Assembly (NCBI GenBank): GCA_029210745.1
Contig: JARGFI010000022.1
Location: 1 to 45,334 of the forward strand
DNA: 45,334 bases
DNA from: Desulfuromonadales bacterium
GTDB taxonomy: Bacteria > Desulfobacterota > Desulfuromonadia > Desulfuromonadales > JAHYIW01
Direction of reading: 5' to 3'
Of the stretch, positions 18,648 through 40,502 are shown piece by piece. Position 1 is the first letter of the stretch. Every line of letters begins with the position of its first letter. The notes beneath the pieces were generated by a model that did no database searches, was not told the origin of the DNA, and worked only from the letters and a program-made list of their open reading frames with translations. Both the position numbers and the translations under genes were made by a program.

Positions 18648-19031
18648 ATGCCCCGCAAAGCCCTGATCGCTGATGATGAACCGCGTTATCGCGATCTGCT
18701 CAAACGTATTTTGGAAAAGAATGGCTATGTCGTCGACCTCGCGGCCTGTGGTGAAACAGCGACGACCCTGTTGCTCGATAATCGTTACGACCTGGTGGTG
18801 ACCGACCTTGACATGCCCGGTCTCAACGGATTCGACGTGATCGAACTGGTCAAACGCCTGCCGAACACCCCGCCGGTGCTGATGGTTACGGCGCAAAAAA
18901 CGATGCTTGATGAAGGGTGGAAGCGCCTCGGTGATGTCCAGTGCTTGCTCAAACCTTTTTCACTGGAAGATTTTCGGGCCAAAGTCGACATATTGACAAA
19001 CTCATGGCAACCCTTTGTGAAGTCCGAGTGA
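18648..19031 (+). CDS. Receiver-only response regulator
   Basis: This 127-residue protein consists of a CheY-like receiver alone. The acidic pocket D9-D10, phospho-acceptor D53 (VVTDLDMPGLNG), T81 and K102 (LLKPF) are all present. There is no output domain, so it must act by protein contact, as a phosphate sink, a relay or a switch on another machine. No kinase is adjacent. The start is supported by AAGGA about 7 bases upstream. Confidence 0.9.
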   Translation: MPRKALIADDEPRYRDLLKRILEKNGYVVDLAACGETATTLLLDNRYDLVVTDLDMPGLNGFDVIELVKRLPNTPPVLMVTAQKTMLDEGWKRLGDVQCLLKPFSLEDFRAKVDILTNSWQPFVKSE

Positions 19032-19073: not shown

Positions 19074-19102
19074 TTGACAAACAAAACCAATTAAGTTATA
19101 TT
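19074..19102 (+). promoter_or_regulatory. Sigma-70 promoter for candidate small RNA
   Basis: TTGACA (19074-19079), a 17-bp spacer and TATATT (19097-19102). It points into a stretch with no reading frame that ends in an intrinsic terminator. Confidence 0.8.
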
Positions 19103-19109
19103 TCACGCC

Positions 19110-19194
19110 AATAGGAAAGAGAACCTTCTTCATACCAAACCTCCTTCCACCTTTAGCGCGCTTCGCCGCCCTCCCGGCAAGCGCGCATTTTTTT
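19110..19194 (+). ncRNA. Candidate 85-nt small regulatory RNA
   Basis: A near-consensus promoter predicts a start near 19110 and an intrinsic terminator ends at 19194, giving a transcript of about 85 nt without a plausible open frame. The unpaired part contains AAACCTCCTTCCACCTTT (19137-19154), which is complementary to Shine-Dalgarno sequences (GGAGG, AAGGAGG). C/U-rich seeds of this kind are typical of trans-acting small RNAs that block translation starts. It lies between the receiver-only regulator and the converging his operon. No known RNA family was recognised. Confidence 0.55.
19156..19194 (+). terminator. Intrinsic terminator of the candidate small RNA
   Basis: GCGCGCTT (19156-19163) pairs with AAGCGCGC (19179-19186). 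An inner GCC/GGC pairing extends the stem, and seven T residues follow (19188-19194). Confidence 0.85.
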
Positions 19195-19205
19195 GTTCTG
19201 CCTCC

Positions 19206-19303
19206 GGAGCCTGTCCGAAAATAAGGGCCGAAGCGAAAACCCAGAAGTTTGAGGGCAGATTGTGGCTCGTTTGCAGCCGGTCATTCATTCTCGGACAGGC
19301 TCC
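19206..19303. repeat. 98-bp element with 13-bp terminal inverted repeats
   Basis: GGAGCCTGTCCGA (19206-19218) and TCGGACAGGCTCC (19291-19303) are perfect inverted copies enclosing 72 bp without a gene, as in a miniature transposable element or insertion-sequence remnant. A 15-base part of the right end, continuing into the flank (CGGACAGGCTCCTGG), recurs at 43411-43425 in the accessory region. No target-site duplication is obvious. Confidence 0.5.
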
Positions 19304-19306
19304 TGG

Positions 19307-19528
19307 TCAGATATATTTGACCAACTTGCGCAGCGTCCCGACCCAGGAGCAACCGCAGCAGTGCACGGCGGAAAAATCTCGCCCGGAAAGGTCAGCGGCG
19401 GAGGCTTCAGTCGGGAACGGAGTACCAGAAAAATCGACGTGAAAGTAGATATTATCCCCCTGTTCATCGACGATGAAGAAGCGGGCGACGCCACATTGTG
19501 GGCAAAGCAGATATTTTGGTCCGGACAT
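19307..19528 (-). CDS. Small zinc-ribbon protein
   Basis: The 73 residues have an N-terminal CPQCG (9-13) and a later HCCGCSW (about 56-62), giving a two-knuckle zinc ribbon around a beta-rich middle (ARFFIVDEQGDNIYFHVDFSG). It starts 26 bp after the hisG stop with GGTGAG upstream, so it is probably the last gene of the hisI-hisG operon. No function is known to me. Confidence 0.7.
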   Translation of the reverse strand: MSGPKYLLCPQCGVARFFIVDEQGDNIYFHVDFSGTPFPTEASAADLSGRDFSAVHCCGCSWVGTLRKLVKYI

Positions 19529-39837: not shown

Positions 39838-40502
39838 ATCATTTCTTCCGAAAGCCGCACATCCAGCGCGGCAAGAGTCCAGCGCGGGCCGAGGTGCTCC
39901 GTTAACAAACGATCGACCGCAACAATGTCGCCGGTCGCCAGCAACTGCGGCAGTCCAGCAGCCAACAGTTGCTGTAAAACCTGCGGATTATAGAAATTTT
40001 TCATACCGGGTGTCAATTTCTTTCGGCGCAATGCCGCCGCAATGGCAACAACCGCCCCCCATTCCTCACCGAACTGTTCGGCCAGCAGGTCGCGCAGTAC
40101 AACCGCCAACAGCGGGCTTTCCCCCGCGGTGGCGACCGAGATCGACAGTTTACCTCGCTGCAGTGTTGCCGACAGGGTAAAATCGCCCGCAGCGGGATCG
40201 TCGGCACTATTGACGGGGATGCCGCGCGCGCGCGCCGCTGCGGCGACAGCGACGTTGACTGCGCGATCATCGGTTGCAGCAAAAGCCAGACAGGCCCCGT
40301 CAAGATCGGCGGGGAGAAAGTGACGGGCTATCACCTCAACTGACGGGACGTCCTGAAATACGGAGTTCCCTTCTGGCGCGATCAGGCGCACCCGCGCGCC
40401 AGAGTTCAACAGGCCACGCACCTTACGGGAACCGACCGTGCCACCACCAACCACCACGCACAGCTGCCCGGTGACATTGAATAACAGGGGATAATCACTC
40501 AT
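39834..40502 (-). CDS. Precorrin-2 dehydrogenase / sirohydrochlorin ferrochelatase-type protein
   Basis: The 222 residues match the N-terminal (Met8p/SirC) part of CysG: an NAD-binding Rossmann fold with LCVVVGGGTVGSRKV (about 14-28), VNSADDPAAGDFTLSATLQRG, and a C-terminal helical domain. It oxidises precorrin-2 to sirohydrochlorin and may insert iron. Placed first in the operon, it feeds siroheme while CobA/HemD supplies precorrin-2. The ATG at 40502 is about 20 nt from the predicted transcription start. Confidence 0.9.
   Translation of the reverse strand: MSDYPLLFNVTGQLCVVVGGGTVGSRKVRGLLNSGARVRLIAPEGNSVFQDVPSVEVIARHFLPADLDGACLAFAATDDRAVNVAVAAAARARGIPVNSADDPAAGDFTLSATLQRGKLSISVATAGESPLLAVVLRDLLAEQFGEEWGAVVAIAAALRRKKLTPGMKNFYNPQVLQQLLAAGLPQLLATGDIVAVDRLLTEHLGPRWTLAALDVRLSEEMI

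Follow-up and report, generated by a model that had tools for sequence, protein, structure and literature searches.

A very probable gene for a regulatory RNA of an order-wide Desulfuromonadales family with predicted anti-Shine-Dalgarno sites

What is encoded by a short stretch of DNA that starts with a good promoter, ends with a strong terminator and has no reading frame in between? Such a stretch lies in the segment of 45,334 nucleotides from a Desulfuromonadales genome that was analysed here (hereafter the window), and the first-pass annotation had read it as a small RNA whose C/U-rich seed can pair with ribosome-binding sites. The Desulfuromonadales are metal and sulfur reducers in which post-transcriptional control seems to have been little studied. 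We conclude that the locus is very probably the gene for a regulatory RNA of about 85 bases that belongs to an order-wide family of the Desulfuromonadales. The features of the locus are collected in Table 1.

Table 1. Features of the small-RNA locus (positions in the window)
Feature	Position	Strand	Basis or remark
-35 element TTGACA	19074..19079	+	promoter scan of window
-10 element TATATT, spacer 17 bases	19097..19102	+	promoter scan of window
predicted small RNA, ~81-87 nt	19109..19194	+	from promoter and terminator; 5' end placed 6-8 bases past the -10 element, 3' end at the T tract
5' C/U-rich motif ACCUUCUUC	19123..19131	+	shared with several members in other genomes
anti-Shine-Dalgarno stretch AAACCUCCUUCCACC	19137..19151	+	predicted unpaired, minimal fold
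terminator hairpin	19156..19186	+	outer stem GCGCGCTT (19156-19163)/AAGCGCGC (19179-19186), inner stem GCCG (19165-19168)/CGGC (19175-19178); one c between the 5' arms, one a between AAGCGCGC and T7; covaries across family
terminator loop CCCUCC (DNA CCCTCC), anti-Shine-Dalgarno core	19169..19174	+	CUCC invariant in 67 aligned members
T tract (T7) of intrinsic terminator	19188..19194	+	sequence

The promoter had been described as a near-consensus sigma-70 promoter, and the scan bears this out: TTGACA-17-TATATT (19074-19102) agrees with the consensus at 11/12 bases, and no other site on the plus strand of the window reaches this level; in shuffled windows, scanned on both strands, the mean was 0.23 such matches per window and the maximum 1. 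The minus strand of the window has three matches of this quality, at 40016 (12/12), 40557 and 10293. The strong intrinsic terminator (19156-19194), a hairpin followed by a T tract, lies about 85 nt from the predicted promoter, where it had been placed. A simple terminator scan missed it, because the interior between GCGCGCTT and AAGCGCGC is 15 bases long and exceeds the loop limit of the scan, which is 8. It was also correct that there is no reading frame, as the predicted transcript contains no ATG, GTG or CTG start and its sole TTG is located at its extreme end; a small ORF or a coding leader is ruled out on this ground.

The predicted transcript is structured. An RNA of 88 nt folds at -27.9 kcal/mol versus -13.5 +/- 2.75 for shuffles (z = -5.2), and the minimal part of 63 nt gives a z of -5.6. 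Lack of conservation even in close strains had been named as the observation that would speak against a small RNA; a congener (same genus) carries 1 substitution in 86 positions across the predicted transcript (19110-19195), with 20/177 substitutions in the upstream intergenic region and 6/25 in the segment before hisG. The first-pass annotation had located the seed in an unpaired C/U-rich stretch. This is right for the minimal 63-nt fold, in which AAACCUCCUUCCACC is unpaired, whereas in the full-length fold part of the stretch pairs weakly with the 5' end. The single-stranded stretch is a candidate for the seed, but the CCCUCC loop of the terminator, which is the more constant site across the family, had been overlooked.

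The hairpin defines an RNA family of the Desulfuromonadales that is conserved and covaries. Covariation in related genomes, which had been proposed as a check, is evident in the alignment of the 67 family members that were fetched: all 8/8 stem pairs vary on both sides, 98.7% of the cells pair, and the covariation score, at 0.596, exceeds that of shuffles (0.189) and of slid controls (0.131 at most). The stems vary from member to member (GCGCGC, GGGGTGCCC, CCCCGC and GCCCGCG are examples) while the loop CUCC stays constant. It is present in 67/67 members and is followed by U in 63/67, a constancy that is partly built in, since the model with which the members were collected contains the loop; stem covariation and a comparison with other terminators are less affected by this. 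For that reason the terminator loops in the same 292 kb were used as a control, and CCTCC was found in the loop of 64/67 members versus 3/179 other terminators. A CCUCC loop as a general property of terminators in this DNA is rejected by these numbers. In the own genome of the window, CCTCC followed by a T tract, when no stem is required, occurs 33 times versus 49 in the reversed control, so there is no enrichment by sequence alone and the structured hairpin is what counts. The second site recurs as well: in the region 5' of the stem, CCUCC lies in an unpaired segment in 26/67 members (expected 5.9), AACCTCC occurs in 11/67 (expected 0.6), and ACCUUCUUC in 5/67 (expected about 0). The family was defined by a covarying GC-rich stem, a YCCUCC(Y)G loop, a T tract and, no more than about 110 nt upstream of the hairpin, a promoter of its own; the window copy has all of these.

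As regards distribution, when 98 related genomes were searched at the DNA level, the hairpin turned up in several further families of the Desulfuromonadales. The first covariance model (R1), built from 13 sequences, finds the family in 82/136 genomes of the order; a single genome may hold as many as 7 copies, and some copies are in tandem. The window copy scores 62.4 bits (E = 4.4e-13 in its own genome) with this model, of which it is itself one of the 13 training sequences. One locus (L074 2915-3600, minus strand) has four copies of the RNA in tandem with a spacing of mostly ~219 bases, and three-copy tandem arrays are present in genomes G044, G082 and G086. A strict sequence pattern run against 84,980 species gave 8 records only, all of which are titled Desulfuromonadales, Desulfuromonas, Pelobacter or Geoalkalibacter. 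A second model (E <= 1e-5), applied to an even phylum sample of 395 genomes, matched the own genome, 7 genomes of the same order and 4 others, and gave 0/8 matches in the same-class genomes listed. At the looser threshold of E <= 0.001, the first model matches 11 genomes of the class but outside the order, which indicates that the family, or a look-alike, reaches somewhat further.

That some genomes carry several copies, also in tandem, and that a different palindromic repeat lies just downstream of the window copy, would fit a repeat or mobile element that has spread in genomes and has no regulatory role. We find this scarcely credible: where a genome has several copies, their stems, flanks and promoters differ; the stems covary; and model R1 gives no significant match in the own genome other than the window copy. 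The second model and inspection point to two further candidates there, both with a divergent stem. One (C85:48772-48825; L139 1501-1554, minus strand; E about 0.02) has the loop CCCCUCCUG and a TTGACA promoter that overlaps a TGAC..GGTC palindrome; the other (C54:49-100; L140, plus strand; E about 0.1) has the loop CCCCCUCC and is preceded by another hairpin, likewise with a C/U-rich loop. The repeat downstream of the terminator (window 19203-19308) is ~106 bp long, has inverted ends (GGAGCCTGTCCGA...TCGGACAGGCTCC) and is MITE-like; related sequence recurs at six further sites of the own genome, and the congener has a copy that is ~64 bases longer.

The genomic surroundings of the window copy raise two other explanations. 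A gene for a response regulator (PF00072) is located upstream on the same strand, with its stop at 19031, and no hairpin is visible from there to 19156; moreover, 35/66 members have a same-strand gene upstream. The hairpin might accordingly be the mere terminator of the response-regulator gene, its CCUCC loop being a local habit of terminators. We disfavour this explanation and regard it as improbable, considering the rarity of such loops among the other terminators of the same DNA, the enrichment of CCUCC in the segment 5' of the stem, the near-consensus promoter just upstream of the window copy and the dedicated boxes that recur before other members (see below). In addition, the upstream gene is on the opposite strand in 31/66 members according to a crude ORF call, and these hairpins cannot terminate that gene. 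The window hairpin would nevertheless also stop read-through transcripts of the response-regulator gene. A related possibility is that the RNA derives from the 3' UTR, or has a dual origin, being cleaved from or made together with the response-regulator mRNA and acting by the same anti-Shine-Dalgarno pairing. The distance of ~125 nt from the stop codon to the hairpin on the same strand, and the preservation of the gene pair in the congener, are in line with this, but the window RNA has its own promoter and other members adjoin unrelated or opposite-strand genes, and we consider such an origin very improbable.

The upstream regions indicate that many members have a promoter of their own. With expected counts derived from mononucleotide shuffles, TTGAC is present in 26/67 upstream regions (expected 8.8), a box of the ACG-N-CACGT type in 17/67 (expected 0.3) and a TKACC-N5-GGTNA palindrome in 12/67 (expected 0.7). 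A search of six genomes for TTTTACG-N5,7-CACGTGG gave six matches (L133-L138), each of which immediately precedes a family member; the reversed control gave none. All matched boxes have the form TTTTACG-N6-CACGTGG and were found only upstream of family members, which points to this box as a candidate site of a dedicated regulator. We found no description of the CACGTGG and TKACC-N5-GGTNA promoter boxes in the literature. The family has multiplied into paralogs with different promoters, which could let several signals act via the same kind of repressor. A more far-reaching proposal is that each paralog of an order-wide anti-Shine-Dalgarno family has its own class of promoter box (CACGTGG, TKACC-N5-GGTNA or plain sigma-70), by which several environmental signals would converge on one shared translational brake; to our minds the case for and against it is evenly balanced.

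How might the RNA act? We think it likely that the locus is a stand-alone gene for an anti-Shine-Dalgarno small RNA of the order-wide family, which blocks the initiation of translation. Transcription from the sigma-70-type promoter would yield an RNA of ~85 nt that ends at the intrinsic terminator and would offer anti-Shine-Dalgarno sequence twice, as single-stranded AACCUCCUUCCACC and as the CCCUCC loop of the terminator. Both sites could pair with several mRNAs at ribosome-binding sites of the GGAGG type, and pairing would prevent loading of the 30S subunit and lower translation; the broad range of targets proposed by the first-pass annotation is plausible. The invariant CUCC is usually read as CCUCCUG, which is complementary to the Shine-Dalgarno sequence CAGGAGG. 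Judged by duplex energy with the seed, only 1/32 start regions of the window, the starts being chosen mechanically, falls beyond the 1% cut-off set by random sites. The U-tail of the terminator may be a binding site for Hfq, since the own genome encodes Hfq (E = 6e-23). In sum, the anti-Shine-Dalgarno design recognised by the first-pass annotation has gained from order-wide conservation, stem covariation, the invariant CUCC, recurrent promoter modules and multiple or tandem copies.

Alternatively, the CCUCC sites may imitate the 3' tail of 16S rRNA and be bound by a protein that recognises this tail, in place of pairing with mRNAs, so that the RNA would titrate a protein or mimic the ribosome. 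The core of the 16S rRNA tail is ACCUCCUU, which matches AACCUCCUU in the window and, in one relative, the repeated ACCTCCTTT copies. We know of no protein partner that requires a CCUCC hairpin loop, which counts against protein titration. Against it also speak the pairing precedents for multicopy, loop-displayed C/U motifs (PMC4132741, PMC8295292), and we judge it highly implausible.

Pairing with mRNAs is the preferred reading, and the question is whether the RNA belongs to a system that is already known. At gathering scores, Rfam gave no match in the window, nor in 20 loci with other members. The window reaches 18.2 bits with alpha-r14 (NfeR1; RF02344) versus a gathering score of 58.8, with 0 matches at gathering in the 20 further loci, and 14.8 bits with suhB/mmgR (RF00519) versus 41. 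Likewise, the window RNA has one strong hairpin with a CCCUCC loop and one unpaired AACCUCC, and not the three CCUCCUCCC hairpins of alpha-r14. Membership in LhrC is rejected in view of the absence of a Rfam match at gathering and of a window fold that lacks a strong 5' stem-loop A. Yfr1 of cyanobacteria, compared here by description only, is very short and, like the window RNA, has an unpaired C/U-rich stretch ahead of the terminator hairpin; it differs in that its motif ACUCCUCACAC lies between two hairpins, outside the terminator loop. In the searchable literature on small RNAs of Geobacter and Desulfuromonadales and on anti-Shine-Dalgarno motifs, we came across no account of this RNA, nor of any other small-RNA family of the order; a survey of 50 genomes including Geobacter reports 48 unnamed 'terminator stem' candidates, which may overlap with ours (PMC11109978). 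The kind, a multicopy anti-Shine-Dalgarno small RNA, is already known, and the Desulfuromonadales family appears to be new. Being conserved and easily spotted, with a short seed, dedicated promoter boxes and several paralogs, the RNA offers a direct entry point to post-transcriptional regulation in this order.

Three known systems are particularly similar. In alpha-r14/NfeR1 (SmelA075) of Alphaproteobacteria, CCUCCUCCC anti-Shine-Dalgarno motifs are displayed in hairpin loops on variable stems, silencing occurs via occlusion of the ribosome site, and related copies exist (PMC10746234, PMC3927594); in NfeR1, three CCUCCUCCC loops pair and block translation initiation (PMC10746234). Our family shares the loop-displayed motifs, the variable stems and the related copies with it, while alpha-r14/NfeR1 has three hairpins and a longer motif and is found in a different class. 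LhrC of Listeria, which is also multicopy, blocks translation initiation by pairing through UCCC motifs, one in a loop, one in a linker and one in the loop of the terminator (PMC4132741); it differs in having UCCC instead of CCUCC and an extra 5' stem-loop A, and in being from a Firmicute. In RepG of Helicobacter pylori, the C/U-rich terminator loop is sufficient for pairing and the gene is located beside that of an orphan response regulator (PMC8295292), both of which recall the window copy, whereas RepG comes from another lineage and targets G-repeats in an mRNA leader and not the Shine-Dalgarno sequence itself. In our best reading, the window RNA works like alpha-r14/NfeR1, LhrC and RepG and is a member of none of them. 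The Desulfuromonadales would then be another, apparently independent, lineage in which the terminator hairpin doubles as a pairing site, and the occurrence of such sites in separate lineages bears on the repeated origin of repressors of this kind.
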